Origin: Muribaculaceae bacterium
GTDB lineage: Bacteria; Bacteroidota; Bacteroidia; Bacteroidales; Muribaculaceae
DNA: 64,000 bases
NCBI GenBank assembly: GCA_017619355.1
Contig: JAFZSO010000014.1
Coordinates: forward strand, 1-64,000
Reading direction: 5' to 3'
The notes below the pieces were generated by a model. The model made no database searches. It had not been told where the DNA came from and saw only the letters and a program-made list of their open reading frames with translations. The position numbers were made by a program, and so were the translations under genes. The stretch's first letter is position 1, and each line of letters starts with the position of its first letter. Positions 1,855-52,373 of the stretch are shown piece after piece.

Positions 1855-2922
1855 ATGACCTATTATTTTGTATCGAACAACGAACGCAAGGGCCCTTACG
1901 AATTAGAAGAGCTCAAGGCGATGGGTGTCATAACCCCTGACACTCTTGTATGGACCAATGGCATGCCCGATTGGGTGAAGGCCAGTGAAGTAGCTGACAT
2001 GCATGGAATTTTGTATGCACCCGATCCCACTGTGGCCGCCAACGACTATGCGGCCTATCAGCCACAGCCGGAACCTGTGCAGCCCGAAGCCACCATGGCT
2101 CAGCCTCAGTATCAGGAACCTGTTCAGCCTCAGTATCAGGAGCCTGTTCAACCGCAATATCAGGAACCCGTGCAGCCTCAGTATCAGGAACCGGTGCAGC
2201 CTCAGTATCAGCAGCCTGCACAACCTCAGTACCAGCAGCCTGCGCAGCCTCAGTACCAGCAGCCTGCACAGCCTCAGTATCAGCAACCTGCTCAACCTCA
2301 GTATCAGCAACCCTACCAACAGCCTTACCAGCAGCCTTATGAAGCACCCAAGAAAAAGAAATCAAAAGCTTGGTTGTGGATTATCTTGGGCCTCCTGGTG
2401 GCAGCGCTGGCAGTGATGGCTATCACGAACCCGAGCAAGAGTGACCATGTGAAGGCTATCAGTAAGGAGATGTCGAAGATGTTTGACAAGGTTGGTGGCG
2501 AGATGGGTGCCGTGATGGGCATGATGGGCGACAAGCTCACCCCTATGCTCGAGAAGGAGCTCGATTATCACAACTATGTGTTCTTCTCGACCGTGACCGA
2601 CAAGAAGGGTGATCGTCTGAGTTGGGGTCTGTTTGGCAATGTTTGGGCCACTGTAGATGAAGATGGCAAACAGCTCAAGGAACTGCAGGAGAGTATTGAC
2701 TCACTGAAGAATCTCGGCGGCTCGACCGGCCTGGACACTCCATCGGACAATGAGAGTGACAATGCCACCACCGGCGATGATGAAAATGCAGTGGCTACGA
2801 CGCCCAGCGATGACGACATTCCCGACCTGAACCTCGACGATCTTGGCAGAGAACTCGACAAGGCGGGTGATGAACTCAACGATGCACTGAACGACCTGCA
2901 GAAGGAACTTGAAAACCTCTAA
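1855..2922 (+). CDS. GYF_2 domain membrane protein with PQYQ(E/Q)P repeats
   Basis: A 355-residue protein of unknown function. Residues 1-50 form a GYF_2 domain (DUF4339: YYFVSNNERKGPYELEEL, then DTLVWTNGMPDWVKA), a presumed peptide-binding module. Residues 83-162 are nine near-perfect eight-residue repeats of PQYQEPVQ or PQYQQPAQ plus a degenerate tail. A basic KKKKSK segment leads into one transmembrane helix at about 174-192 (WLWIILGLLVAALAVMAI). The following part resembles DUF4359 (NPSKSDHVKAI, then LSWGLFGNVW), and the end is acidic and rich in Asp. Such architectures are common in Bacteroidetes as membrane sensors or scaffolds, but no partner is known. A shorter relative with GYF_2 and a PQYAQ stretch lies at 36909. 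Confidence 0.8.
   Translation: MTYYFVSNNERKGPYELEELKAMGVITPDTLVWTNGMPDWVKASEVADMHGILYAPDPTVAANDYAAYQPQPEPVQPEATMAQPQYQEPVQPQYQEPVQPQYQEPVQPQYQEPVQPQYQQPAQPQYQQPAQPQYQQPAQPQYQQPAQPQYQQPYQQPYQQPYEAPKKKKSKAWLWIILGLLVAALAVMAITNPSKSDHVKAISKEMSKMFDKVGGEMGAVMGMMGDKLTPMLEKELDYHNYVFFSTVTDKKGDRLSWGLFGNVWATVDEDGKQLKELQESIDSLKNLGGSTGLDTPSDNESDNATTGDDENAVATTPSDDDIPDLNLDDLGRELDKAGDELNDALNDLQKELENL
2101..2340 (+). repeat. 24-bp in-frame tandem repeats
   Basis: Nine consecutive 24-bp units (2101-2316), each starting caGCCTCAGTATCAG or a close variant, encode PQYQ(E/Q)P(V/A)Q; a degenerate tenth unit follows. The first four units encode EPV and the later ones QPA, suggesting block expansion. The length keeps the reading frame. 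Confidence 0.9.
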
Positions 2923-2940
2923 GGTTTTAATGTAACGCAA

Positions 2941-2974
2941 AAGGCTGCAACCATTTAGGCTGCAGCCTTTTTTT
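2941..2974 (+). terminator. Rho-independent terminator after the GYF_2 gene
   Basis: The inverted repeat AAGGCTGCA/TGCAGCCTT (2941-2949 and 2961-2969) has an 11-nt loop and is followed by a run of T. It starts 18 bp after the stop codon at 2922. Confidence 0.8.
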
Positions 2975-2985
2975 ATGTCAGTTGC

Positions 2986-3435
2986 TTAGGCGCGGTGCAG
3001 GATGTCGTAGTTGGCATCGCGCACAAAGGCGAGCATGAGCTGTGCCGAGTGCTTGCGCCAAGCGGTGGCGTGGTAGTCGTCGAGGTCGCCATAGCAGCGC
3101 ATGAGGGCATAGGCTGCAAAGGCGTTTTCAAGAATCTGCTTGAGGTGGCCTGGCAGTGACTCGGCATAGGGGTGACGGAAGCAGAAGGTGAGCCTGATGT
3201 TGGCGTGCTCAATGTTGGGATTGAAGTTGGCAAAGGCGATGTAGGCCGCGGCCTTGGTGATGAGGTCGTCGTAGGCCTCTTTCACTTTGAGCGTGAGCAA
3301 TCGGCTGTTGTCGGGCGTGAGTCGGTAGAGGTGCTTGTTGTGGGCACAATGCCAGGCACTTTGCGCATAGATGCTCTCAAGCACATCGTCGAGGTCAATA
3401 ACGACCTCCAGCGAGTAAATGTTTTGTGTTTCCAT
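2986..3435 (-). CDS. Hypothetical protein
   Basis: A 149-residue protein I do not recognise. It starts METQNIYSLEVVIDLDDVLESIY and is mostly helical in character, with a Cys/His-containing stretch (SAWHCAHNKHLYRLT) and a conserved-looking end (AFVRDANYDILHRA). No signal peptide or membrane helix is seen. The frame is open up to an ATG at 3504, which overlaps the stop of the upstream gene as ATGA; I prefer 3435 because the extra 23 residues come from AT-rich repetitive sequence and look non-coding. It follows the equally unknown gene at 3501-3941, probably in the same transcript. Confidence 0.6.
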   Translation of the reverse strand: METQNIYSLEVVIDLDDVLESIYAQSAWHCAHNKHLYRLTPDNSRLLTLKVKEAYDDLITKAAAYIAFANFNPNIEHANIRLTFCFRHPYAESLPGHLKQILENAFAAYALMRCYGDLDDYHATAWRKHSAQLMLAFVRDANYDILHRA

Positions 3436-3500
3436 AGTAAAAGTAGTGAATAGTAGAATAGTAAAATTAGGTAATAGTAATGAGGGTGAGGGGAGGTTGC

Positions 3501-3941
3501 TCATGCTACGCGGAGTTGGCGCAGACGCTTCTCGCGTCGCTCGCGGCTGGCTCGATAGGTGTTCCAGTAGGCATAGTTAGGGTCGATGTAATAGCCTGAG
3601 GCTCTGCCATGCAGCAGTACAAAGTCGAGCGCAGCTGCTATCGAGATGTTGCGGTTCATTCTCACGTCGCTCACCTGTTGCGCCAGTTCAATCCAAAAGG
3701 CGCGCTTGATGGGCGTTTTCACGGGCACAATGCCCTGATTGATGATTTTGCACACCACAGGGTAGGCGCGTTCAAAGCTCACATTGTATCGAGGCTTTCC
3801 CTGCTTGAGGGCGCACTCGATGGCGGCTCTGCGGGCATTCTTCACGCCAGCAGCAAGCATGAGTTGCAGGGCGTCGTGATAAAGGTCGAGAAACTCGCTG
3901 TCGCGAGTCATTCGGTTTTGTGTTTTTCCGTTGATATTCAT
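3501..3941 (-). CDS. Hypothetical basic protein
   Basis: A 146-residue basic protein without recognisable family. It has no signal peptide or membrane helix. The N-terminal half reads like a helical domain (FLDLYHDALQLMLAAG, NARRAAIECALKQGKPRYNVS) and the C-terminus is strongly basic (YRASRERREKRLRQLRVA), which would fit nucleic-acid binding, but that is inference. A Bacteroidetes-type promoter lies about 45 bp upstream, making it the first gene of a two-gene unit. Confidence 0.6.
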   Translation of the reverse strand: MNINGKTQNRMTRDSEFLDLYHDALQLMLAAGVKNARRAAIECALKQGKPRYNVSFERAYPVVCKIINQGIVPVKTPIKRAFWIELAQQVSDVRMNRNISIAAALDFVLLHGRASGYYIDPNYAYWNTYRASRERREKRLRQLRVA

Positions 3942-3985
3942 TTTTTTACTGTTTTAAAAAGGTTGTAGAAATGATTTATTCCCTG

Positions 3986-4017
3986 CAAAGATAATGCAAG
4001 AAATGGTAAAATGCAAA
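3986..4017 (-). promoter_or_regulatory. Bacteroidetes-type promoter for the hypothetical pair
   Basis: Minus-strand TTTG (4017-4014) and TATCTTTG (3993-3986) with 20 bp between them, ending 44 bp before the ATG at 3941. Confidence 0.6.
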
Positions 4018-4062
4018 CAAAATAAGGTAAAATTACTATTCTTCTGTGATTTTTTCTCAAAA

Positions 4063-4752
4063 TCAGGGTTGGCTCTGCATGGCGTCGAGGGTGATTTGCA
4101 TCAGTGCCTCGAGGTAGGTACCCACAAACTGGATGTTCTGCCGGTTGCTCACATTGAAGTTGAAGGTGTGGCACAAGGGAATCCCCTTCTTGGCGCTTTG
4201 CAGTACATACACGATGGCGAAGTGTTTGCCATGCTTCACGAACCGGTCAACCACAGTCATCTGGTGCTTCTTGTCGTTGAAGATGAAGTTGCGCCACAGT
4301 TCGTCGTGTGGCTGGATGTCGCTGTCTACGGGGTTGGCTTCTACCACCATCTGTGAGCCGTCGGCGCGGTGCACGAAATCGGGTAACCAGCGGTTGATGG
4401 GATTGGTGGCAAGAATGAGGTACTGGTCGGCGAGAATGACTTCGATGGAGTCGATGCGGAGCGGGATTTGCTTCACCACATCGGCTATGTACTGGGCCAG
4501 GGCAGGGTCGTAGTGGTTGAATTCATCACGACTTTTGATGAGATTCAGGTCAAAACTGCCATTGCTTGCATTGGTGAGGGCCGTGGTGCTGTTGCCCCCA
4601 AAGTTCACCGTCATGCCGTTGGCCATGCTCGATATGGTGTTGTCCTGCAGTGTCCAGTCACTATGGGTGCCGAAGGTGGGCATCACCTGCTTTGCACAGC
4701 TCGCAAGTGTGAGGGCAAGGAGTATGAGCAGTTGTGGGAGTATTCGTTGCAT
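4063..4752 (-). CDS. Putative lipoprotein
   Basis: A 229-residue predicted lipoprotein. From the ATG at 4752 it begins MQRILPQLLILLALTLASC, a signal peptide with lipobox LASC and acylated Cys at residue 19. The mature part has no domain I can name; it contains IDSIEVILADQYLILATNP and an FNVSNRQNIQFVGTYLEAL segment near the end. A longer in-frame extension exists upstream but it is Arg-rich and would bury the signal peptide. It starts 11 bp after the stop of the PAS gene, so the two are likely co-transcribed. Confidence 0.75.
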   Translation of the reverse strand: MQRILPQLLILLALTLASCAKQVMPTFGTHSDWTLQDNTISSMANGMTVNFGGNSTTALTNASNGSFDLNLIKSRDEFNHYDPALAQYIADVVKQIPLRIDSIEVILADQYLILATNPINRWLPDFVHRADGSQMVVEANPVDSDIQPHDELWRNFIFNDKKHQMTVVDRFVKHGKHFAIVYVLQSAKKGIPLCHTFNFNVSNRQNIQFVGTYLEALMQITLDAMQSQP

Positions 4753-5656: not shown

Positions 5657-5690
5657 TTTGCTGTGGTTTGGGCAAAAGTATGTATATTTG
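5657..5690 (+). promoter_or_regulatory. Promoter of the tubulin-like/actin-like operon
   Basis: TTTG at 5657-5660 and TATATTTG at 5683-5690, 22 bp apart, ending 55 bp before the ATG at 5746. It is the only clear promoter found before the seven-gene operon ending at 14521. Confidence 0.6.
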
Positions 5691-5745: not shown

Positions 5746-7203
5746 ATGAAACGGAAACCGACCTTTTCTTTGCTTTTGGGCGCAGTGACGCTGGCTTTGA
5801 GCCTGGTGCTGGGTGCCTGTGGAGGTTCTCCCGTCGAGAAGATGGTGAAGAACGCCTTCCTGCAAGGCGACACCACGCAGGTGCGCTTCGACAGCATTTG
5901 CAGCATCATCAAGGCGAGCCCCGACCGCTACAGGGATTTCGTGGACGAGAACGGAGAAATCAACATCGAGAACCTGAGTAAGATGATAGAGAAGGTGGGC
6001 GGCAGCTTGCGTCCGCCCATGCACTGGAATGTGAAGGCTTATGGCGTGGAGAGCTATTCACTCACCGTGTATTTTGAGCGAAGCGGTTCCATGGTTCCTT
6101 ACGACCAGACAAGTGGCGGCGGTCAGTTGAAAAAGGCGGTGAACGACCTGATCAACTACTTCCCCGCCGACGAGGACAAGGTGAGCATCAATATCGTGAA
6201 CAACGACATTTATCCTTACAACGGCACAACGGCAAGCTTCCTGCAAGACCGCAACATCTACGAGAGCACGCGTGGCACGGGCGATGCCAGCTTCACCGAC
6301 TTCCAGCTCATCTTCGACAAGATATTCAAAGCGCAGAAGCCCGGCAATGTGAGCGTGCTGGTGACCGACCTTATCTACTCACCCAAGAACACGGCCGATG
6401 TGAGCGTGGAGAAGATATTGAACGAGGAGAACAGCCTCGCCACTGCCATCTTCAAGCAGTATAAGGGCAAGTCGATTATCGTGAACCAGCTCATGGGCGA
6501 CTTCGACGGCAAGTACTATCCTTACAACGGTGAACCCTTTGACTATCGTGGCCGCCGGCCCTTCTATGTGATAGTAATTGCCGATGCCCAGGTGATGGAC
6601 CGCATGGCGGGTGATGTGCGTTTCGACCGTTTCCTGAACCTGCCCTGCGTGTTGGAGACCTATCGCTTTAATCAGGCCCAGAGCCAGTTGAAGTACAGGA
6701 TACTGCCCAGCTGGAAAGACGATGTGGGCCGGTTCCGCATCAGCCGCGACAAGCAGGGGGCACTCACCCAGTGCGAGGGCGACCGCGAGACGGGCGTGCT
6801 GTGCTTCACGGTGGCGGCAGCGCTCAACGGCCTGCGCAAGAGCGATGCCTTCTTGACCGATGTGAACAACTATACCATTCAGTCGCACGACGGCTATGCC
6901 ATCAAGGTGCGCAAAGTGGAACCAGCCGATATCAACGGCAATAACAAGGATTATTTGGAAGGCATGACGCACCTGATGACCTTTACCGGCAAGCTCCAGT
7001 CGCCGCGCGACGAGGTGATGGTGACTCTGCGCAACGACTTCCCAGAGTGGATCAGCAGGAGCACCAGTCGCGACGACAGTCATGCCGGCGGCAACTTTGC
7101 CGGCACCACATTCGGACTCGAACAGTTCCTGCGTGGCATCTACGATGCCTTCACGGCAGGCGACAGCAACTATGCGACTCTGACAATAGAAATTGAGAAA
7201 TAA
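5746..7203 (+). CDS. vWA-like lipoprotein, first gene of tubulin/actin-like operon
   Basis: A 485-residue lipoprotein. The N-terminus is a signal peptide ending in a lipobox (LGAC, Cys at about 25), so the protein should be anchored in an envelope membrane. From about residue 105 a von Willebrand A-like fold is suggested by a beta strand followed by FERSGSM (residues 110-116), which resembles a MIDAS motif DxSGS with Glu in place of the first Asp. Further strands (KVSINIVNND, NVSVLVTDLIYSP, RPFYVIVIADAQVMD) fit the same fold. It is followed 17 bp later by a small membrane protein and then the tubulin-like gene. I infer it is the outward-facing component of that system. The vWA call is mine and moderate. 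Confidence 0.7.
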   Translation: MKRKPTFSLLLGAVTLALSLVLGACGGSPVEKMVKNAFLQGDTTQVRFDSICSIIKASPDRYRDFVDENGEINIENLSKMIEKVGGSLRPPMHWNVKAYGVESYSLTVYFERSGSMVPYDQTSGGGQLKKAVNDLINYFPADEDKVSINIVNNDIYPYNGTTASFLQDRNIYESTRGTGDASFTDFQLIFDKIFKAQKPGNVSVLVTDLIYSPKNTADVSVEKILNEENSLATAIFKQYKGKSIIVNQLMGDFDGKYYPYNGEPFDYRGRRPFYVIVIADAQVMDRMAGDVRFDRFLNLPCVLETYRFNQAQSQLKYRILPSWKDDVGRFRISRDKQGALTQCEGDRETGVLCFTVAAALNGLRKSDAFLTDVNNYTIQSHDGYAIKVRKVEPADINGNNKDYLEGMTHLMTFTGKLQSPRDEVMVTLRNDFPEWISRSTSRDDSHAGGNFAGTTFGLEQFLRGIYDAFTAGDSNYATLTIEIEK

Positions 7204-7220
7204 CAAAAACGACAATAACG

Positions 7221-7667
7221 ATGGAGAAAAAAGTGACATATCTTGTAGTGGGCATTGCAATCACGGTGCTCTACTGGATATTCAAGGTGGAAATTCTTGA
7301 GAAACTCTATTTTGCCCAAGGCTTTAGCGATGAGATGTATAACAACAGCATCTACGGCATCGTGACCGCCATCAGCATAGGCATGGCGTGGGGCGTGGCT
7401 GCCATCTACTATTATGTGATTAACTCGGTGCGTTTTGCCCGCTGGTGGCACTGGTTGAGCATGCTGGTGATCGTGACCCTCATCACGCCCATCATCTGTT
7501 ACTTTGTGACCACGGGCATTTTCAACAGTGCTGGCAAGGACTTCACGCACGAGGCCATGGCATTCGAGTTGAGCAACATGATAGCCGTGGCGGCCTTGTT
7601 TGTGGTAGCGTCGTTCTCCATCAGGTGGTGGAGCAGTAACTGCAGGCATACGCCTATACCGCAATAG
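7221..7667 (+). CDS. Four-helix membrane protein
   Basis: A 148-residue integral membrane protein with four predicted helices at roughly 5-22, 45-67, 76-98 and 115-136. I recognise no family. It lies between the vWA-like lipoprotein (17 bp upstream) and the tubulin-like gene (49 bp downstream) and is therefore likely a membrane subunit or anchor of the same system. The C-terminal tail is short and Trp/Arg-rich. Function is unknown. Confidence 0.7.
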   Translation: MEKKVTYLVVGIAITVLYWIFKVEILEKLYFAQGFSDEMYNNSIYGIVTAISIGMAWGVAAIYYYVINSVRFARWWHWLSMLVIVTLITPIICYFVTTGIFNSAGKDFTHEAMAFELSNMIAVAALFVVASFSIRWWSSNCRHTPIPQ

Positions 7668-7716
7668 TTTAGGGTTTAGAGTTTTGAGAATATTGATAAC
7701 AATGTAGACTCATTAT

Positions 7717-9237
7717 ATGAAATTATTTGTATTTGCAATAGGCGGAACAGGTTCGCGGGTGCTCAAGTCGCTCGTGATGCTTGCCGCTGCAGGTGTGCGG
7801 CCTCTTGACCAGGACGGCAAGCCACTGGAGAACTTCGAGCTGGTGCCGCTCATCATCGACCCGCACAAGAGCAACGAAGACCTGAAGCGCACCGATGCGC
7901 TGCTCAACTCCTACCGCATGATTCGCGAGAAGTTGCATGGTGGCCGAATCAACGCCGAGGGTTTCTTTGCCATGAAGATTTCCACGCTGCAGGAAATCAT
8001 GGGCATGACCACCGCTCAAATCAACGATACCTTCGTGTTTAATATGGAGGCAGTGGGGCAGTGCAAGTTCCGCGACTTCATAGGCTACGACACGATGAAC
8101 GAGCCCAACCAGGCACTGTCGTCGCTACTCTTTGCCGACTACCAGCTCGAGAACAAGATGAACATTGGCTTTGTGGGTTCGCCCAACATAGGCAGTGTGG
8201 CGCTCAACATGGTGAAGGACAGTGAGGAGTTCAAGGCGTTCTCCAATGTGTTTGGCGAGGGCGACCGCATCTTCTTCATCAGCAGCATCTTTGGCGGCAC
8301 GGGTGCGGCCGGATTCCCCATTCTGGTGAAAAACATCCGTCAGGCCCAGAACATTGATGTGAGCAACAAGAGTTTCTTGCAGAAGGCTCCCATTGGCGGG
8401 CTCACGGTGCTACCTTACTTTAACCTGAACAACAGTCAGGGCAAGAGCATCGACAAGGCCGACTTTGTGGTGAAGACGCAGTCGGCACTGCAATACTACA
8501 ACGAGACGCTCACAGGCATGAACGACCGCAATGTGAATGTCATCTACTATCTGGGCGACCAGACATCGTCGGTGCCCTATGACTACGATCCGGGCAATGT
8601 GCGTGACCAGCACGACCCTGCTCATCTGGTAGAAATGGTGGGAGCGATGGCACCGCTGAAGTTTGCCGGAATTCCCGACAACCAGATATATGACACCCTC
8701 GGTGGCTTCCAGCCCACCAAGGCGTTTGAGTATGGACTGGAACGCGACCTGCTCGACCTGGATTTCGCCACCTTCGGGCTGGAGACTCGCCAGCTCATCT
8801 ATAGGCCCATGGTCAAGTTCCACATGCTCTTTGTGTATCTGCGCACGGGTTTCAAGAGCATCATTGGTCAGGGCTTCACGCAAGATGAGCCCAAGATCAA
8901 GAGCGACTTCATCACCTCGCAGTTCTACCGCCAGCTCACCGAGCACTTCTTTGATTACTACACCGAGTGGCTCACTGAACTGCACCGCAACATCAGGCAT
9001 GTGCAACTGTTCAATGTGGGTGAGGAGAACCTGGCCAACATCATCAAGAATGTGACCACCCGCAAGACCTTCTTTGGCCGCAAGAGCGTGGACAATAACA
9101 CCTTCCATGCCGAGCTGAACAAACTGAGCCGCGATGCCAAGCAGTACAGTGATCGCACGGTTGAGTTCAAGCTGCTCGACCTCTTCAACCATGCTGCCGA
9201 TAAGGTGCTTGACGAAAAATATGAAAACATCAACTGA
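7717..9237 (+). CDS. Tubulin/FtsZ-superfamily GTPase-like protein
   Basis: A 506-residue protein that resembles the Tubulin_2 (tubulin-like) group rather than FtsZ. Residues 4-14 (FVFAIGGTGSR) match the first glycine-rich loop of the fold; residues 189-199 (SSIFGGTGAAG) match the tubulin signature GGGTGTG; PLIIDPHKSN fits the T3 region and GGLTVLPYF the strand after the signature. No membrane helix is present. The stop at 9237 is followed by the ATG of the actin-like gene after 2 bp, so the two are tightly coupled. GTP binding is expected from the motifs; filament formation is not shown. The C-terminal half has no obvious similarity to FtsZ. Confidence 0.82.
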   Translation: MKLFVFAIGGTGSRVLKSLVMLAAAGVRPLDQDGKPLENFELVPLIIDPHKSNEDLKRTDALLNSYRMIREKLHGGRINAEGFFAMKISTLQEIMGMTTAQINDTFVFNMEAVGQCKFRDFIGYDTMNEPNQALSSLLFADYQLENKMNIGFVGSPNIGSVALNMVKDSEEFKAFSNVFGEGDRIFFISSIFGGTGAAGFPILVKNIRQAQNIDVSNKSFLQKAPIGGLTVLPYFNLNNSQGKSIDKADFVVKTQSALQYYNETLTGMNDRNVNVIYYLGDQTSSVPYDYDPGNVRDQHDPAHLVEMVGAMAPLKFAGIPDNQIYDTLGGFQPTKAFEYGLERDLLDLDFATFGLETRQLIYRPMVKFHMLFVYLRTGFKSIIGQGFTQDEPKIKSDFITSQFYRQLTEHFFDYYTEWLTELHRNIRHVQLFNVGEENLANIIKNVTTRKTFFGRKSVDNNTFHAELNKLSRDAKQYSDRTVEFKLLDLFNHAADKVLDEKYENIN

Positions 9238-9239
9238 CA

Positions 9240-12200
9240 ATGAGCAACATACTATCTTATAACAACAAGACCGCCAAGAGCGGAGCCGACGACTGGATTG
9301 CGGTAGAGCCATATAGCGACGACGACATCCGACAAATCAAAGACCCCAACGGAGGCCTGTCGCAGAACCCGCGCACTGCCATACCCAGTCCCTTTGCGCA
9401 GCTCGACCTCGTGAAGAACGCTTTCGACCACCTGACCAATGGCGGCACGCGCATGACAGGCATCGTGAGCGAGCTGAAAATGGTGAGCGACGCCCTCGAT
9501 GTGGCGCAACTCTTCTTTGAGTATGAGAACCACCGCGATGTGCTCCACGTGGTGCGCTGGAACAAGGCCACCGAGATAGAGCGTCTCAAGGCCGACCCGC
9601 GTCATCGACTCTATGGCGAGACCCTTCAGCTCTTCATGCAGAGCGACAGCGTGTATAACTTTGCCGACCTCAACGACTGGTACATCATCATGCTGGGCAA
9701 CCAGGTGCTGGGTGCCACATCGCCCGCCTCGTTCACCCTGGCAGCCCCCTTTGCCAAGGTTGAAGAATCGGTGAATGTGGAGCCTAACATCAAGCTCTTC
9801 GGCACCGTGCGCGACCTGTGGGAACGCGACGAAGAGTTTGTGTTCCACTTGTTCCTGCTTTTCAATGCCTACACGCAGTTGCGCTACAAGCTGGGCAATG
9901 TGTATGCCTATATGGTGAAGAACCTGCCACTCATCGAGCGCAACAAACCACAACTCTATCAACGAATTCTGCAGGCGTTGCCTAACCCCACCGCCCTGCA
10001 AACTGACCGCGAGCCGCTGGTGCGCCAGATGCTCGACCAGCAGTACAGCCCCTTTGTAGGCGAGGACGAAATCACCATTCTCTCGGCACCGCTTTATCAC
10101 AAGCGCAGCATGGACATCCGCCATATGGCCGCCGAGAGCGACTTTGTGATTGCACCCACCCGCACTATGCCAGCAGGCACGGTGCTGCCTCTTGTGTTGC
10201 GCAACAACTTCAACGGAAGCATCGACCACTACCGCTATGTGAACCGCGAGTGGGAGAGTGCTACCCAGGTATATGCCTCGGGGGTGGCGATGAGAGAGCG
10301 CAAATTGCCAGGCACTAATATTCAGTATCCCTTTCTCACGACGGCCGATTTCCTGGCCGAGTCGATTGTGAAACTGAGTGGCGCCATCGACAGCGACCAC
10401 TACTTCGACGGCAACATCGTGCGCGCCAACTATGGTTCCACCTCCAGCTACCTGCTGCCGGTGAAACCGCTCTTCTTCGACTACTTCACGGCAGCCGACC
10501 TGCAAGGCTCCATTCAGGGTCAGCCCATGCTGAGCGTGGTGGAGAACAGCGACGGCAGCGTGACTGTGACACTGCGCATTCCCGTGCGCAAGCGGTTCAT
10601 GGAACTCACGCGCACCTATCTCACGGTGACCGACCCCAACTGGCAGTTCAGCGAGCAGATGGGCACTGGCCGCATCGTGAGCGGTGTTCAGTTGAGCACC
10701 GCCATCTTCCCCTTCGTGCGCACTTCTGGGGCCAATGCCTACAAGGTGCAGCTGTTCTCTTACCTGCGTAACGGCAATGCCAGCCTCAAGTTCTTCGCTC
10801 ATGAGGGCGGCAATGTGGCCGTGACAGGCAAGGAACGCACCAAGACTTCGTTCAGCACCAGTTACTACGATGTGCAGGGAAGTTTTGACTATATGGAGGC
10901 AACGGTACAGACCGAGATGGGTTCGTTCACGGGCATGATTGTGCCGCTGTGGCCGCCCTATAACGAAGCGGCCAAGGAACTGGTGTTTGCGGTCGACTTC
11001 GGTACAACCAACAGCCACATTGAGTGGGCCGAACGCGGGCACGAGTCGCAGCCGCTCACTTTCACGCACAATCAGTCGGCTACGCTTATCGCTTCGCTGC
11101 TCAAGAAGGACTCGCTCCTCATTGCCGACCAGCTGCAGCGCATCGAGTTCCTGCCTCGCGACATTGATGCCGTGTATGGTTTCCCGCTGCGCAGTGCGCT
11201 GGCGAGCAATGTGAATGGCAGTGGCGACACCACGCTGTTCAGCGACATCAATGTGCCTTTCCTTTATGAGCGTCAGTACTTCGACGGCTACCAGGTGACC
11301 ACCAACCTGAAGTGGATGGGCAACAATGTGCTGTCGAAGGAATTCCTGCGCGAGATGGTGCTGCTCATCCGTGCCAAGGCCCTGCTGGAGCATGCTCCGC
11401 TCGACAAGGTGCGGGTCATTTACTTCTATCCCGTGAGCATGGGCGGCAGCGACCGCGGCAAACTGGAGCAGACTTGGCAAGACCTGTACCGCACCTACTT
11501 TGGCGGCGATGCCGATGTGAACCTGCATGCCTATCCCGAGTCGATCGCGCCCTCGTTCTACTACAAGAGCGCCGATGTGGCTGGCAGCAACTTCGTGAGT
11601 GTTGACATTGGTGGTGGCACCAGCGATGTGGTGGTGTATCAGACCACAGCCGACCAGAACAAGACCATTCCGGTAGCCATCTCGTCGTTCCGTTTTGCTG
11701 GCGATGCCATCTTTGGCGATGCCTTCAGCGAGCGTGACGCCGACAACAATCCGCTCATCCGTCATTATAGCGAGTACTTCAAGAAACTGGTAGAGCGCAA
11801 CAGCGATGTGACCTACCTGAACAGCATCCTGAATGTGATTATGGCCCAGAAGCGGTCGGAGGATGTGAATGCCTTCCTGTTCTCGATTGAGAATGTGGAG
11901 CAGTTGCGCAACCTGCCGCCTATGGACCGCAACCTCTATAGCTACAATGCGCTGCTCAAGAACGACGACCAGCGCAAACTGGTGTTCATGTATTTCTACT
12001 CGGCCATTGTCTATTACATCGCCTGTGCGATGAAGCACCGTGGCTATGTGAAGCCCAAGCAGATGTACTTCAGCGGAACAGGCTCGAAGATACTGAACAT
12101 TGTGGGTTCGAAGACGCAAATCAACGAACTCACGCAGGAGATTCTGGAACGCGTCTTCGGCGAGAAGTACGACGAGCAGTTCACCATCAAGATCGAGAGC

Positions 12201-12683
12201 GAGTGTCCCAAGCAGATTACCTGCCGTGGCGGCGTGCGCATCGAGAACCTGCGCACCGACCCGCATCCCACTCCCGAGACGGTGGCAACCATCGACCTCA
12301 TGCGTCCGCGCAACATCAATGCCATGAAGTATTGCTTCTCGATGGTGGGTGACGAGTCGCTCACGATGGCCAAGGTGAACGACCTTGAGGTGCGAGAGCG
12401 GCTGGTGGAGAAGGTGAAGGAGTTCAACCAGTTCTTCATTGACCTTTGCGACAATGTGACGCGCGACGAGTTCGGCATCGACAACAAGGTGATGAACCTC
12501 TTCAAGCAAGTGCTCAACGACAATGTGGCCAATTACCTGATTGCCGGCATCAACACCTTCCTGCAGGGCCGTTACGACGACGATGTGCCCATCGAGGATG
12601 TGCCCTTCTTCTATCCCATCATTGGCATTATCAGGCACAATCTGCTCAAGAACCTGTGCAATGAAGTGATTTCGAAACTATAA
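9240..12683 (+). CDS. Large protein with C-terminal Hsp70/actin-type ATPase module
   Basis: An 1147-residue protein. Residues 1 to about 580 form an uncharacterised region that includes an IPSPFAQLDLVKNAF segment near residue 50 and beta-rich stretches. From about 582 it has an Hsp70/actin superfamily ATPase: phosphate-1 motif VDFGTTN (D586), phosphate-2 motif VDIGGGTSD (D789) and adenosine motif MYFSGTGSKI (942-951). All three motifs are intact, so ATP binding is likely. The size and layout recall SrfB-like giant actin relatives, but I cannot confirm that family. It follows the tubulin-like gene by 2 bp. No transmembrane segment is evident. I infer that it partners with the tubulin-like protein. 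Confidence 0.82.
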   Translation: MSNILSYNNKTAKSGADDWIAVEPYSDDDIRQIKDPNGGLSQNPRTAIPSPFAQLDLVKNAFDHLTNGGTRMTGIVSELKMVSDALDVAQLFFEYENHRDVLHVVRWNKATEIERLKADPRHRLYGETLQLFMQSDSVYNFADLNDWYIIMLGNQVLGATSPASFTLAAPFAKVEESVNVEPNIKLFGTVRDLWERDEEFVFHLFLLFNAYTQLRYKLGNVYAYMVKNLPLIERNKPQLYQRILQALPNPTALQTDREPLVRQMLDQQYSPFVGEDEITILSAPLYHKRSMDIRHMAAESDFVIAPTRTMPAGTVLPLVLRNNFNGSIDHYRYVNREWESATQVYASGVAMRERKLPGTNIQYPFLTTADFLAESIVKLSGAIDSDHYFDGNIVRANYGSTSSYLLPVKPLFFDYFTAADLQGSIQGQPMLSVVENSDGSVTVTLRIPVRKRFMELTRTYLTVTDPNWQFSEQMGTGRIVSGVQLSTAIFPFVRTSGANAYKVQLFSYLRNGNASLKFFAHEGGNVAVTGKERTKTSFSTSYYDVQGSFDYMEATVQTEMGSFTGMIVPLWPPYNEAAKELVFAVDFGTTNSHIEWAERGHESQPLTFTHNQSATLIASLLKKDSLLIADQLQRIEFLPRDIDAVYGFPLRSALASNVNGSGDTTLFSDINVPFLYERQYFDGYQVTTNLKWMGNNVLSKEFLREMVLLIRAKALLEHAPLDKVRVIYFYPVSMGGSDRGKLEQTWQDLYRTYFGGDADVNLHAYPESIAPSFYYKSADVAGSNFVSVDIGGGTSDVVVYQTTADQNKTIPVAISSFRFAGDAIFGDAFSERDADNNPLIRHYSEYFKKLVERNSDVTYLNSILNVIMAQKRSEDVNAFLFSIENVEQLRNLPPMDRNLYSYNALLKNDDQRKLVFMYFYSAIVYYIACAMKHRGYVKPKQMYFSGTGSKILNIVGSKTQINELTQEILERVFGEKYDEQFTIKIESECPKQITCRGGVRIENLRTDPHPTPETVATIDLMRPRNINAMKYCFSMVGDESLTMAKVNDLEVRERLVEKVKEFNQFFIDLCDNVTRDEFGIDNKVMNLFKQVLNDNVANYLIAGINTFLQGRYDDDVPIEDVPFFYPIIGIIRHNLLKNLCNEVISKL

Positions 12684-12696
12684 TTTTTCAGAGAGA

Positions 12697-13383
12697 ATGA
12701 AAACCAGAATAATGATAGGGCTATTGACGGCCGTTTCAGCCCTCCCTGCTATGGCACAAGGCAGTGCCGCAGGTGGAGGAAACAGTTTCCAGACATTTGC
12801 CGACATTGTGATCTTTCTAGTTGCTGCCTGTGCGGCTGTCTTCTGCTATTTTCTTCGAAAGGATTTCAAGGCCGAGCAGGTGCGTGCCGCTGCCGAGGTG
12901 AATGCGCTCAAGGTGGCCATCAAGAATCAGCAGGAGGAGGCAAGGCAGGAGGTTGGCCGCCTTTCCCGTGAGGTGGAAGATCTGAAGGAGCAGTTGCGGC
13001 AAAAGCATGTGGAACCTGCCGTGAAAATGGCACCCAAGCCTCAGGTTGAGCGTGAGAAATTCCCCAAGCGGCTGTTTTTGACCCGTCCTGATGAGCGGGG
13101 TGTGTTCATGGGTGTTTCGCGTGACTTTGAGCCAGGCAATTCCATTTTTGAACTCACCACGCCCGACGGCCGCACGGGAAGTTTCAAGGTGATTGACGAT
13201 GCCGAGGTGCATCACCTGGCACTCATGATGCCTACCGAGAATCTCACACGTGCCTGCACTGGCGACAACATTCAGGTTTCGGGCGGCAAGCGCCGCATCG
13301 TTACCGAGGCTCCGGGCAAGGCTGTGTGCGAGAATGGCGCATGGCGTGTGACCGAGATGGCAAGAATCAGCTATCACAATTGA
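12697..13383 (+). CDS. Coiled-coil membrane protein of the tubulin/actin-like operon
   Basis: A 228-residue protein with a signal peptide (cleavage near AMAQ, residues 18-21), one transmembrane helix at about 34-52, and a coiled coil at about 55-105 (KAEQVRAAAEVNALK to EVEDLKEQLRQK). A compact C-terminal domain of about 110 residues follows (KRLFLTRPDERGVFMG to the end), probably beta-rich and cytoplasmic. I do not recognise that domain. It lies 13 bp after the actin-like gene and 24 bp before the first zinc-ribbon gene. A role as membrane tether or scaffold is inference. Confidence 0.7.
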   Translation: MKTRIMIGLLTAVSALPAMAQGSAAGGGNSFQTFADIVIFLVAACAAVFCYFLRKDFKAEQVRAAAEVNALKVAIKNQQEEARQEVGRLSREVEDLKEQLRQKHVEPAVKMAPKPQVEREKFPKRLFLTRPDERGVFMGVSRDFEPGNSIFELTTPDGRTGSFKVIDDAEVHHLALMMPTENLTRACTGDNIQVSGGKRRIVTEAPGKAVCENGAWRVTEMARISYHN

Positions 13384-13407
13384 TTTTGAACGAGTGGGGG
13401 AGCAGTC

Positions 13408-13872
13408 ATGGTGTATTATTGCAACAAGTGCGGTCGCAAGATTGAGATGACCAAGGGTGAGCTGAATGCTCAGCACGGCCAGATTGTGTGCCCGCAGTGC
13501 CTGGCGGTGTTCAAGATGCCGCGTACCGATGCTCCGCCGCCACCCATCCCGGCAAAATCGACTAAGAAGAAACCGGCCGACGAGGTGCCACCCGTTCCTC
13601 AGCGTCGAGCCAAGGCGGCCCCTGTGCAGCGTGCTCGTCCTGTGACGAGAGTCGCACCGGCAACCACGGCTCGTGCTGCTCAAATGAAATCGGCCTCATC
13701 ACATCGCAAGGCCGCTGCTCCTCGCAAGAAAGCGTCGGGCAAGAATACCAAGAAGCCGCTGTTTGGCATTGGTTTTGATAATATGACCCCGCTGGGGTGC
13801 CTGACGCTGAGTGTGGTGATAGCGCTCGTTTTCTTTGCGTTCTATTATATCTTTGGCGAAGTAATGAAATAA
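13408..13872 (+). CDS. Zinc-ribbon protein with C-terminal membrane helix
   Basis: A 154-residue protein. Residues 4-36 form a zinc ribbon with two cysteine pairs (YCNKCGRKIEM and VCPQCLAVFKM). A long basic, Pro/Ala/Lys-rich linker (about 40-115) leads to a single helix near the C-terminus (LGCLTLSVVIALVFFAFYYIF), so it looks tail-anchored with the ribbon in the cytoplasm. It is the first of two successive genes with this layout and probably shares the operon. The ribbon could bind nucleic acid or protein; nothing in the sequence decides. Confidence 0.75.
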   Translation: MVYYCNKCGRKIEMTKGELNAQHGQIVCPQCLAVFKMPRTDAPPPPIPAKSTKKKPADEVPPVPQRRAKAAPVQRARPVTRVAPATTARAAQMKSASSHRKAAAPRKKASGKNTKKPLFGIGFDNMTPLGCLTLSVVIALVFFAFYYIFGEVMK

Positions 13873-13888
13873 AAATGGTGATTGAGCT

Positions 13889-14521
13889 ATGATTTTTAAG
13901 TGTCCTAAATGTGGTCAAGAGATAGAACTGAGTCAGGAACTGCTCGAGGCAACTGGCTATCAGGCAGTGTGTCCGCAATGTGCCTCGCCCCTGAAGATTG
14001 AAGGCGAGTTTGCCTATATTCCGCTCGCTGAGCAGCCCACCGACGATGTGGAGCCCGACGAGTTGCAGCAGGCTCAGCCTGTGGAGGCGGTAGAGATTGG
14101 CGATGACGAGACACCACCACCGTTTCATGGCGATGTGGCGGGCAAGCATCCGCTCTTCGACGATGCCGTGGCTTACATCAAGACATGCAACGCCATCTCG
14201 GTGCCGCGACTCAAGGACTACTTCGGCATCACGCAGGAAGAGGCGGCCGAACTCATGCGCCAACTCGAGGAGAACGGCATAGTGGGACCGTACCAGGGAG
14301 GGGCACCGCGCAAGATTCTCATTGAGCACAACACGGGACTGCCCAGTGCTTTTGAGAGCCGCCGCACCTTTGAACAAGACAAGCAGCTCGACTTCATGAG
14401 GCGCGAGATGGAGCGTCTGCAGCAGGGTAGCCATCCGCAGGTCAAGACCTACGGTTGCAGCTGTTTCACGGTGCTGATGGTAGCCATGCTTGTCTATCTT
14501 CTTTTCCAGCTATTTCGCTAA
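13889..14521 (+). CDS. Zinc ribbon - FtsK-gamma-like - transmembrane protein
   Basis: A 210-residue protein, last in the operon. Residues 4-34 are a zinc ribbon (KCPKCGQEIELSQ and VCPQCASPLKI). After an acidic Pro-rich linker, residues about 88-150 strongly resemble the gamma domain of the DNA translocase FtsK: HPLFDDAVAYI, SVPRLKDYFGITQEEAAELM and LEENGIVGPYQGGAPRKILI parallel the gamma pattern ending in GIVGP..G.kPReVL. There is no ATPase motor. A short charged segment is followed by one C-terminal helix (CFTVLMVAMLVYLLFQLF). In FtsK the gamma domain reads KOPS DNA and contacts XerD; whether DNA binding is kept here is unknown. A terminator follows at 14561. Confidence 0.8.
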   Translation: MIFKCPKCGQEIELSQELLEATGYQAVCPQCASPLKIEGEFAYIPLAEQPTDDVEPDELQQAQPVEAVEIGDDETPPPFHGDVAGKHPLFDDAVAYIKTCNAISVPRLKDYFGITQEEAAELMRQLEENGIVGPYQGGAPRKILIEHNTGLPSAFESRRTFEQDKQLDFMRREMERLQQGSHPQVKTYGCSCFTVLMVAMLVYLLFQLFR

Positions 14522-14560: not shown

Positions 14561-14593
14561 CACGGCTGATGGAAACATCAGCCGTGACTTTTT
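14561..14593 (+). terminator. Rho-independent terminator of the tubulin/actin-like operon
   Basis: Perfect 11-bp stem CACGGCTGATG/CATCAGCCGTG (14561-14571 and 14576-14586) with a GAAA tetraloop, followed by ACTTTTTT. It closes the seven-gene operon 39 bp after its last stop codon. Confidence 0.9.
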
Positions 14594-49639: not shown

Positions 49640-51016
49640 TCAACTGCCAAACTCAATGGTGGTGGCTGTGCCTTTCTTGGGTTGCTGTGGCTCGGGCTTG
49701 CGCACAGGCGTTGCGGGCACATTTTCCTGCATTTCTTTGAGTCGAGCCTTGATTTTCTGGTCGCGTTTAACCACGGGAACCTTCTCAAGCAGATCAATGA
49801 TCTCATCGTTGTCAATGTCGTTAGGCTTGAGCACAAAGTAACGGGCCTCAGCCATCTCAATGTTCTGCTGGATGAGTTTCTCCTTGCCATACTCGATGCC
49901 GATGCGTTCCATGGCTTCCTTTTCGGTCGAGGTCTTCACGGGAGCGGCTTTTTCCAGGCTGGGTGTTTCGCCTTCAAGCGTAACATCGAAACCAGCAGCG
50001 AGAATGGTGATCTTGATCTTGTTGTCGAGCGATTCGTCGAAGGTTGCACCCCAAATCACGTCGACCTCTTCGCCGAAGTTGGTCATGAACTGTCGCATCT
50101 CGTCGACCTCTGCCATGCGGAAGGGATTTTCGGAGTTGGGGTTGAAATAGAAGTTCATGAGAATGCGCTTGGAACCGTACACATCGCGGTTGCGCAGCAG
50201 CGGTGATTCAAGTGCGTCCTCGATGGCCTTGGTTACGCGGTGTTCGCCCTCGCCGTAACCTGAACTGATGATAGCCACACCACCATCGCGCAGGGTAGTG
50301 TTCACATCGTTGAAGTCGAGGTTGATTTTACCCTCGGCAGTGATCAGTTCAGAGATGCTGCGAGCGGCAATCGAGAGGGTGTCGTCGGCCTTGCCGAAGG
50401 CGTTCACGAAGTCAAGGTCGGGATAAATCTCGGTGAGTCGCTCGTTGTTGATGATGAGCAGAGCATCTACGTAGTTCTGCATCTCATCGGCACCACTGAG
50501 AGCCTTGAGAATCTTCTTGGTGCCCTCGAACAGGAAGGGGATAGTGACAATACCAATGGTGAGGATGCCCTTGTCACGGGCTATGCGAGCCACCACGGGA
50601 GCGGCACCGGTACCGGTACCACCACCCATACCGGCGGTGATGAACACCATCTTGGTTTCGTCGTCAAAGAGCGAGGCGATGTCGTCGGCACTCTCTTCGG
50701 CGGCAGCCTTGGCTTTCTCGGGGTCGTTGCCAGCGCCGAGGCCAAAGGTGGTGTTAGGCCCTATAAGCAGGCGGTTAGGCACGGGTGAGTTCTGGAGTGC
50801 CTGGCGGTCGGTGTTGATGACCACGAACGACACACCGCTGATATTTTGAGCATACATGTGGTTGATGGCGTTGTTACCGCCGCCACCCACACCCACAACC
50901 TTAATGATGGTGGGCATTTTTTCGTCGATTTTGAAACCCGAGCCTTGTTCGAGTGTTTTGAAAATATCGTTGTCCGTAGACTCTTGCATATTTGGCAAAT
51001 CTTTTAAGTTCGGCAT
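49640..51016 (-). CDS. ftsZ: Cell division GTPase FtsZ
   Basis: A 458-residue FtsZ, the tubulin homologue that forms the division ring. The GTP-binding loops are VVGVGGGGNNAIN and the tubulin signature GGGTGTG (131-137), with INTDRQAL and the T7-like NLDFNDV. The C-terminal region after about residue 350 is long, with a charged linker and a basic/Pro-rich stretch near the end (TPVRKPEPQQPKKG). The family start in this phylum is not well fixed; a second methionine at residue 10 is possible. It is the last gene of the dcw cluster, 49 bp after ftsA, followed by a terminator. Confidence 0.98.
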   Translation of the reverse strand: MPNLKDLPNMQESTDNDIFKTLEQGSGFKIDEKMPTIIKVVGVGGGGNNAINHMYAQNISGVSFVVINTDRQALQNSPVPNRLLIGPNTTFGLGAGNDPEKAKAAAEESADDIASLFDDETKMVFITAGMGGGTGTGAAPVVARIARDKGILTIGIVTIPFLFEGTKKILKALSGADEMQNYVDALLIINNERLTEIYPDLDFVNAFGKADDTLSIAARSISELITAEGKINLDFNDVNTTLRDGGVAIISSGYGEGEHRVTKAIEDALESPLLRNRDVYGSKRILMNFYFNPNSENPFRMAEVDEMRQFMTNFGEEVDVIWGATFDESLDNKIKITILAAGFDVTLEGETPSLEKAAPVKTSTEKEAMERIGIEYGKEKLIQQNIEMAEARYFVLKPNDIDNDEIIDLLEKVPVVKRDQKIKARLKEMQENVPATPVRKPEPQQPKKGTATTIEFGS

Positions 51017-51065: not shown

Positions 51066-52373
51066 TTACATGTCTTCGCTATCAGTTTCCTGAAGCAGGC
51101 TACCTAACTTGTCGCTGATAAATTTCCACTTCGACTTTTTGGGTTTTTCGGGCTTCTTCTCAGGTTTGACTTCAGGAACCGGTTCGGTCTTAGGTGCAGT
51201 GTTCACATGCAGTCCAGTGCCACCATCGTCGTAAGTGATGATTTCAATGCACGATTCGCCGTCGGTCAATATCTCAGCACCCTTGGCCAGGAGCGAGAGT
51301 ATTTGAATATACTCGGGCCTGTTGATGGTTTGGTCGAGGATGTTGAGAGTGTGAGGAACGGTACCGGTCCTGACGTTGATTTTGGCGGCTTCTTCCAGTT
51401 TCTTGTTGAATCCCTGCAATTGAGCACCACCGCCAATGAGCACAATGTTCTTGATGTCCTCGTTGTTAAGGTTGGCATAGGGTATCTGCCTGATGATGTT
51501 GGCGATGATTTCACCAGCACGTGCCGAGATGTATTGTGCAGCATCGGCCGAGTTCACGCCCTCAATGTTGATGGACTCGTTAGAGAGCTCAAGCGGGTTG
51601 TGGATGTTCTTCTTTACACGTTCAGCATCGGCCTCAATGATGGTGAGTCCGTTTTCAATGTCCTTGGTAATGTTGCGTCCGCCCAGTGGCAGCGTGGTGA
51701 AATAGAGGAGAGAACCATTTTTGTAGATGGCAACTTCGGTGGTTTCGGCACCCATATCCACAAACATGCAGCCCAGCGATTTCTCTTCGGGTGAGAGAAT
51801 TTCGTCGGCAGCCGCCAGTGGGGTGACAATGTAACGCCGCACCTCAATGGTGGGTTCCATGACACGCTTGAGGCTGATTTTGATGGCTGGTTTAGCCACG
51901 ATGCGATTGAGCTTGATGCTTATTTTTGAACCAAACTGTCCGCTGGGACTGTCGGTTTCCTTGTTGTCGACATAGAATGCGCGTGGCACCACGTCGATGG
52001 TATCATAGTTATTGCTGGTGGTGCGCATCGATTCCTGAATGATGCGGTCGATAATCTGGTCGGTGATGGCATTGGATGAGTCGAGGTCTCGGTTTGCCTC
52101 GGTGATTTCTGAGTGCAACGAGCGGCCGCTGATGCCCACAAACACCTCTGTGATGCGACCGTTAATGCGGTTTTCAAGCCGCCTGAGAATGCGGTTGATG
52201 GCACCTTTAATATTCTCTACATTCTTCACTTCGCCGTGGCGCACACTATTGATGAGCCGCTCTTCTTCGAGCATGCGCACAGTAACATAGCCCGACGAAG
52301 ATTTGTCGGCAATGGCTCCAACTATCTTGGAACTGCCAATTTCAAAGGCTACGATATATTGGTTCTTCTCCAT
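51066..52373 (-). CDS. ftsA: Cell division protein FtsA
   Basis: A 435-residue actin-family protein that tethers FtsZ to the membrane. The phosphate-1 region is AFEIGSSKIVGAIADKSS, the 1C domain follows (VFVGISGRSLHSE), then CMFVDMGAETTEVAIYKNGS for phosphate 2 and IVLIGGGAQLQGF for the adenosine motif. The tail after about 395 is a linker of Pro/Lys/Glu (PEVKPEKKPEKPKKSK) ending in a short amphipathic helix (WKFISDKLGSLLQ), the expected membrane-binding element. It lies 13 bp after ftsQ. Confidence 0.97.
   Translation of the reverse strand: MEKNQYIVAFEIGSSKIVGAIADKSSSGYVTVRMLEEERLINSVRHGEVKNVENIKGAINRILRRLENRINGRITEVFVGISGRSLHSEITEANRDLDSSNAITDQIIDRIIQESMRTTSNNYDTIDVVPRAFYVDNKETDSPSGQFGSKISIKLNRIVAKPAIKISLKRVMEPTIEVRRYIVTPLAAADEILSPEEKSLGCMFVDMGAETTEVAIYKNGSLLYFTTLPLGGRNITKDIENGLTIIEADAERVKKNIHNPLELSNESINIEGVNSADAAQYISARAGEIIANIIRQIPYANLNNEDIKNIVLIGGGAQLQGFNKKLEEAAKINVRTGTVPHTLNILDQTINRPEYIQILSLLAKGAEILTDGESCIEIITYDDGGTGLHVNTAPKTEPVPEVKPEKKPEKPKKSKWKFISDKLGSLLQETDSEDM

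Follow-up and report, generated by a model that had tools for sequence, protein, structure and literature searches.

A seven-gene operon in a Muribaculaceae contig

The subject of this analysis is an operon of seven genes, called A to G here, at positions 5746-14521 of a 64,000-nt stretch of DNA from a Muribaculaceae bacterium (contig JAFZSO010000014.1; the whole stretch is referred to as the window). Its third and fourth genes, C and D, appear to encode relatives of tubulin and of the actin/Hsp70 superfamily. A first-pass annotation had described seven co-directional genes with gaps of 2 to 49 bp, one promoter and one terminator. The open reading frames and gaps were reproduced from the sequence: all seven genes lie on the plus strand, separated in turn by 17, 49, 2, 13, 24 and 16 bp. 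The features are:

5683-5690, plus strand: weak candidate promoter -7 box, TATATTTG, about 55 bp 5' of gene A
5746-7203, plus strand: gene A, lipoprotein with lipobox Cys25 and a vWA-like metal ion-dependent adhesion site (MIDAS) motif, ERSGSM
7221-7667, plus strand: gene B, 148-aa protein with four transmembrane (TM) segments by hydropathy
7717-9237, plus strand: gene C, divergent tubulin/FtsZ relative by profile searches, with T1-like IGGTGSR and T4-like FGGTGAAG loops
9240-12683, plus strand: gene D, 1147-aa actin/Hsp70-superfamily protein with an N-terminal extension of about 570 aa
12697-13383, plus strand: gene E, one TM segment by hydropathy and a coiled coil, with a putative signal peptide judged by eye
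13408-13872, plus strand: gene F, N-terminal CxxC...CxxC zinc ribbon and C-terminal TM anchor
13889-14521, plus strand: gene G, zinc ribbon, FtsK gamma winged-helix domain and C-terminal TM anchor
14561-14586, plus strand: strong terminator-like hairpin, 11 pairs and a T-run, 3' of gene G

The hairpin bears out the single terminator. The case for a single promoter is weak: the candidate box resembles the Bacteroidota -7 consensus, and sigma-70-like matches in the operon region are at chance level (8 observed against 6.7 expected).

We scanned a genome collection for relatives, confirming at least 543 among 597 stretches; the best 80 are called the named loci below. Ratios of nonsynonymous to synonymous substitution (dN/dS) were calculated for A-G against four relatives, L082, L084, L143 and L085, the first of which has the most similar C among the best 80 loci (91%). 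For all seven genes, dN/dS was 0.05-0.17 against L082 and 0.16-0.39 against L084; the comparisons with L143 and L085 were saturated for some genes, and in L085 neither F nor G could be located. The low ratios across A-G imply purifying selection on the operon. Identity to L082 is 61-62% for E and F, against 80-93% for the other five genes. The known families say little about these proteins: at the curated cut-offs of Pfam and NCBIfam, the sole pass among the seven is the FtsK gamma domain of G, and PADLOC and PHROGs scans returned little for A-F.

Tubulin loops had been pointed out in C before, and this stood. Searching with the window protein by tblastn retrieved a protein annotated as tubulin-like on a Gloeothece plasmid (E=4e-15), and this homologue passes the Tubulin_2 cut-off with 40.8 bits. 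Among 33 diverse C members, 30 match Tubulin_2 and 27 match Tubulin PF00091 at E<=0.1 (best 2.3e-10 and 3.1e-9), and residues G9, G10, G12 and F192-G196, in the T1 and T4 loops, are invariant. A C profile gave 24 PDB matches at E<=1, all of them tubulin/FtsZ and around the T4 loop, although weak (best 0.014). Three comparisons count against the assignment. Window C alone scores 14.5 bits against Tubulin_2 (gathering cut-off 27) and 15.4 bits against PF00091 (cut-off 33; E=0.024), and hhalign of home-made C and Bacteroidota FtsZ profiles gave a probability of 4%, mismatched profile pairs in the same comparison reaching at most 0.6%. Because of the Gloeothece match, the Pfam matches of the 33 members and the PDB matches, we consider it supported that window C is a divergent tubulin/FtsZ-superfamily protein near Tubulin_2 (FtsZl1). 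Pfam PF13809 matched none of 21 relatives and therefore misses the window clade. Hydropathy gives C one marginal segment, at the T4-loop region.

The three Hsp70/actin motifs previously reported in D were also recovered, in order: phosphate-1 near 583-595, phosphate-2 near 787-798 and adenosine near 943-952. D586, G588, D789, G791, G792, D796 and G946 are invariant in 27 diverse members. A profile of these members (A8) matched PDB chains 135 times at E<=1. The 60 matches listed comprise MreB and Hsp70/DnaK proteins plus a single protein of the actin family; MreB comes first (1.5e-8), followed by the actin-family match (1.4e-6), which covers two of the motifs in the correct order, and mitochondrial Hsp70 (1.2e-5). 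A genus-level D profile (A3) matched no PDB chain. By hhalign, D reached 95.6% with a DnaK profile, 31.7% with MreB and 0.05% with FtsZ, and Pfam matches at E<=0.1 among the 27 members went to FtsA (11), Ppx-GppA (6), EutA (5), MreB (4) and SrfB (4). Membership of D in the actin/Hsp70 superfamily is thus supported by its profile matches. Its N-terminal 570 or so residues matched no family in scans of Pfam, NCBIfam, PADLOC and PHROGs. SrfB (PF07520) was considered as a home for D, which is likewise a large protein and matches weakly around the phosphate-2 motif; we rejected it because window D scores 11.9 bits against a cut-off of 27.1. SrfB is matched by four of the 27 members.

The remaining products are predicted to be membrane-associated. 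A had been called a vWA-like lipoprotein. The lipoprotein half stood: C25 is invariant in 25 diverse members, as are S113, M116 and D208, the motif is of the (E/D)xS(x)S type, and hydropathy shows one N-terminal segment. The vWA fold, which rests on the motif, is probable; it goes no further than that because one of the 25 members reaches a Pfam VWA model (E=0.052), the other 24 giving no match at E<=0.1. A PDB search with the A profile found no vWA chain, which also speaks against that fold. B, described before as a four-helix protein, has four TM segments. E relatives, which share a similar C-terminal segment by eye, were assigned by iterated hidden Markov models; as coiled coils can mislead, these are the least sure of the core assignments. 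F and G had been read as tail-anchored zinc ribbons, and each does have a C-terminal TM segment, but that description missed the FtsK gamma domain of G (PF09397, 44.7 bits against a cut-off of 30.6). All curated family matches of F were below cut-off.

Spread of the core and its variable downstream genes

Counts of gene presence refer throughout to loci whose contig has room for the gene. Among the named loci, A occurs in 76 of 78, B in 78 of 78, D in 76 of 78 and E in 67 of 71. The same genes accompany C, with the core order kept, much farther away: 11 distant loci at the level of the order have D in 11/11, A in 9/9, B in 10/11 and E in 6/10, and 11 at the level of the phylum have D in 10/11, A and B each in 9/11 and E in 7/10. 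The comparison of neighbourhoods thus shows A-E staying together, but not F and G, whose relatives are variable: a zinc-ribbon/TM relative of either lies somewhere in 58 of the 80 named loci, and an FtsK-gamma-like domain is present in 19 of 80, in three of them upstream of the operon. From these neighbourhoods, the conserved core is A-E (vWA-like lipoprotein, four-TM protein, C, D and membrane coiled-coil protein), not seven genes, and the zinc-ribbon genes are local to the window clade. A chance cluster was rejected on the strength of the retained neighbours in the named loci and by the constant company of D with C.

Within the genus the system is nearly universal (C in 23 of 24 relatives, the sole exception being a genome that is 74% complete). 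Across the order, C was matched in 20 of 295 genomes, the window's own included; two of these matches looked by eye like FtsZ or chance and were dropped (L080, FtsZ; L081, a MurD-like protein). We searched 392 Bacteroidota genomes, apparently the same draw each time, for C, D and a MotB-like protein. C (E<=1e-3) was found in 12 of them. D (E<=1e-10) was found in 11 genomes, the window's own included, and every one of these also has C; the D profile contained no sequences from the ten other genomes matched. In the twelfth C genome, G626, C is broken by one internal stop. This recurrence of C with D, patchy but nearly always as a pair, in other Bacteroidota and, as described next, in cyanobacteria suggests a little-known machine anchored to the membrane.

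The pair also occurs outside Bacteroidota. With C as query, tblastn found five cyanobacterial plasmid records, four of which also carry D. On the Gloeothece and Picosynechococcus PCC 8807 plasmids C adjoins D, and an A-like lipoprotein gene, which in Gloeothece is encoded on the other strand, comes before the pair. The B position is occupied by a small membrane protein that the B model does not match, and E-like proteins, weakly matched, come after the pair. Separately, CP131057.1 (Hyphomicrobiales bacterium UR115) has a weak D-like tblastn match at 199493-200257 (E=5e-3).

What follows the core differs between lineages. A MotA/ExbB-like gene lies 3' of the core in 12 of the 20 distant loci with room, 11 of which also have a MotB/OmpA-like gene; the 12 loci span ten genera, with three from one genus. 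The named loci have neither (MotA-like 0/63, MotB-like 0/60). PADLOC models were run on ten of these stator proteins, from five loci. All five MotB-like proteins match ZorB models (3.9e-8 to 4.8e-14), and two of the five MotA-like proteins clearly match ZorA (9.3e-8 and 2.6e-5). One MotA-like protein passes Pfam MotA_ExbB (23.2 against 22.9 bits); the MotB_plug and OmpA matches of the stator proteins are below cut-off. A MotB-like profile at E<=1e-8 matched five of the 392 genomes, in all five inside the operon of C and D. Because four of these five genomes had contributed to the profile, the informative part of this result is the absence elsewhere in the 392.

Other relatives carry a trypsin-like gene (L063), an aspartyl protease gene (L064) or a YkuD L,D-transpeptidase gene (L188) downstream. 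In L189, two similar TerD-type proteins (2856-4063) lie 3' of a divergent tubulin-actin pair; the one scanned matches PF02342 with 237 bits. In L021, a ParA-type protein downstream of the pair (10487-12199) gives a sub-threshold match to DO-GTPase1 (22.6 bits against a cut-off of 27) and matches the candidate defence model PDC-M28B (1.9e-18). Flanking proteins gave 23 family matches to 20 PADLOC families at E<=1e-10, from at most 23 of 100 proteins, a figure that comes without a background rate.

A proposed membrane assembly and its rivals

We propose that A-E form a tubulin/actin assembly of the inner membrane that is driven by nucleotides and whose outputs can be exchanged, most likely serving against envelope damage or invasion, a proposal whose chances we consider evenly balanced. 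C, as the GTP-binding member, and D, as the ATP-binding one, would be paired on the cytoplasmic face, as FtsZ is with FtsA, and the pair would switch between assembled and disassembled states. B, with its four TM segments, and E, with its TM segment and coiled coil, would tether the pair to the membrane, and lipoprotein A may sense or grip something periplasmic. The output would be exchangeable: many relatives would use a ZorAB/MotAB-like stator that is driven by ions and binds peptidoglycan, others would use proteases or an L,D-transpeptidase, and the window would use F with G. Nucleotide binding and hydrolysis, polymerisation, topology and purpose are all properties that we infer for this assembly. 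The likeliest use is in detecting invasion or damage to the envelope and responding to it, with a logic nearer to Zorya than to cell division; we favour such a surveillance or defence role because of the patchy spread, the carriage on plasmids and the protease or stator outputs. More tentatively, the tubulin, its actin/Hsp70 partner and, in the most complete versions, a ZorAB-like stator bound to peptidoglycan might together be a cytoskeletal pair running on nucleotides and an ion gradient, by which envelope attack is sensed or fought, the window clade having swapped the stator for zinc-ribbon and DNA-binding-like membrane tails; we find this version possible but rather doubtful.

Several observations weigh against the proposed defensive assembly. 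Near-universality in the genus is unusual for a defence system and therefore tells against that role. In the stator, two of the five MotA-like proteins match ZorA weakly (0.028 and 0.23) and one not at all, and of the two weak ones, one fits LeoBC better (6.2e-8) and the other DruC (1.6e-5). No MotB-like match was found in the window genome or in 23 of 24 same-genus relatives, and an earlier MotB profile at E<=1e-3 gave weak matches outside the operon in three of 41 relatives (1.5e-5 to 6.4e-4). As to the linkage of C and D, their pairwise distances correlate closely (rho 0.974 over 88 loci, 0.897 within the window clade), a comparison that has no unlinked control and that co-inherited genes would satisfy anyway. 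The whole-genome searches score few candidates per genome (two for D), so that their counts may include misses, and the D-like match in Hyphomicrobiales is not accompanied by a C match in the plasmid collection.

The pair could instead be a second cytoskeleton for morphogenesis or division, with C and D as filaments and G tied to chromosome segregation via FtsK gamma. Tubulin and actin superfamilies within one operon, the operon's presence in 23 of 24 same-genus relatives and the domain in G would all suit such a role. Yet the window has its own division genes, as had been noted at the outset:

49640-51016, minus strand: FtsZ
51066-52373, minus strand: a 435-aa protein that we take to be FtsA

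FtsZ is in all 41 phylum genomes searched, as against C in 12 of 392; the scarcity and placement of the FtsK-gamma-like domain, and core genes on cyanobacterial plasmids, also sit poorly with this idea. Given that the window already has FtsZ and FtsA and that the system occurs only patchily beyond the genus, we do not favour a division role, and we consider this cytoskeleton distinctly unlikely. A recent duplication of FtsZ/FtsA as the origin of C and D was rejected, as the families differ. The first-pass proposal of a second cytoskeleton-like or nucleotide-driven membrane system survives in its superfamilies and their linkage, polymer function being inference and division not favoured. At the level of sequence, the checks that might have refuted it turned out in its favour: A-E are not scattered in relatives, and searches of curated and PDB profiles support both superfamilies. 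A switch that makes no filaments is also conceivable. On a membrane sensor complex of this sort, C would keep time as a GTPase and D would serve as a chaperone of the Hsp70 type, an arrangement resembling the conflict systems that Kaur et al. (2020) describe. It would account for the higher hhalign probability of D with DnaK than with MreB, for the vWA-like and exchangeable protease-type partners, and for the ParA-type protein of L021. On the other side, D's best PDB profile matches are MreB and the actin-family protein, with Hsp70 after them; DO-GTPase and GAP1 were unmatched in the seven window proteins; and passages of that paper treat tubulin and HSP70 as non-overlapping themes, and the conflict systems as nearly absent in cyanobacteria (PMC7159879). 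We judge such a switch unlikely. It also seems improbable to us that this is simply the FtsZl1 "membrane remodelling" operon of the 2010 proposal and adds nothing of substance to it. That C is near Tubulin_2/FtsZl1 and beside a vWA-like lipoprotein gene agrees with the description there (Makarova & Koonin, PMC2875224), but Hsp70, SrfB and MotB are terms that do not occur in the main text of that paper, its actin passages concern other proteins, and none of the seven window proteins corresponds to the GTPase and kinase partners reported there.

We class the operon as a variant of the FtsZl1-type systems, for which vWA, GTPase, kinase and OmpA partners are described in passages of PMC2875224. 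It shares with them a tubulin-like gene, which lies beside a gene that is probably of vWA type, coexistence with FtsZ, a patchy distribution and, for some systems, OmpA-type proteins. It differs in its tightly linked actin/Hsp70-superfamily partner, in the lack among the seven window proteins of the P-loop GTPase or Ser/Thr kinase that often accompanies them, and in the MotA/MotB-like pair of many of its relatives; because window C fails the Tubulin_2 cut-off, we do not file it as Tubulin_2. Proteins of that family are set aside as divergent in passages of a 2023 study of FtsZ/tubulin evolution (PMC9871819). Zorya defence, according to passages of PMC11890865, needs peptidoglycan binding by ZorB, the ZorA tail and ion flow. 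The likeness lies in the relatives' MotA-like and MotB/OmpA-like pairs, the latter matching ZorB and some of the former ZorA; the differences are the tubulin/actin core and the absence of a stator from the window clade, and this absence from the window is why we do not file the operon as Zorya. No PADLOC match to ZorC, ZorD or ZorE was found among the proteins scanned, the seven window proteins at E<=1 included. The GAP1-N2 conflict systems, as passages of PMC7159879 present them, are similar in joining tubulin or HSP70 to vWA and membrane partners and variable effectors, but keep as separate themes what the window operon pairs. FtsZ-FtsA itself offers a parallel in working, a tubulin- with an actin-superfamily partner, although the families differ and D has 1147 aa against the 435 of the window's FtsA.

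To our knowledge, tightly linked pairs from the tubulin and actin superfamilies are rare outside FtsZ-FtsA. We found no account of the tubulin-actin pairing or of its stator link in the open-access literature, searched through ranked listings with most subscription papers and all preprints outside; the main text of a paper on stator evolution does not mention tubulin (PMC12505986). A second such pair in several Bacteroidota families and in cyanobacteria, in many cases joined to a stator homologue, would make it possible to test how the two superfamilies cooperate at a membrane. A role for FtsZl1-type proteins might also emerge, the 2010 paper having offered a prediction alone.

Variant and decayed loci

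In L185, the G626 locus, the operon is decayed over about 7.2-10.1 kb: besides the stop in C, D was not found and the MotB-like gene has internal stops. A deeper, second tubulin type of about 530 aa with the motif IGGTGMR occurs in the Bacteroidales loci L022, L023 and L073-L079. A D relative of about 1140-1230 aa adjoins it in five of eight loci with room, and the models used detected none of A, B and E there.

An extra gene, of 422 or 523 aa, separates C from D in L026 (on the contig of L086) and L037 (on the contig of L149). The core A-E lies in L167 on a 1.77-Mb Prevotella replicon listed as a plasmid (NC_022111). Finally, genome G196 carries two A-D copies (L064 and L066), whose downstream genes differ.

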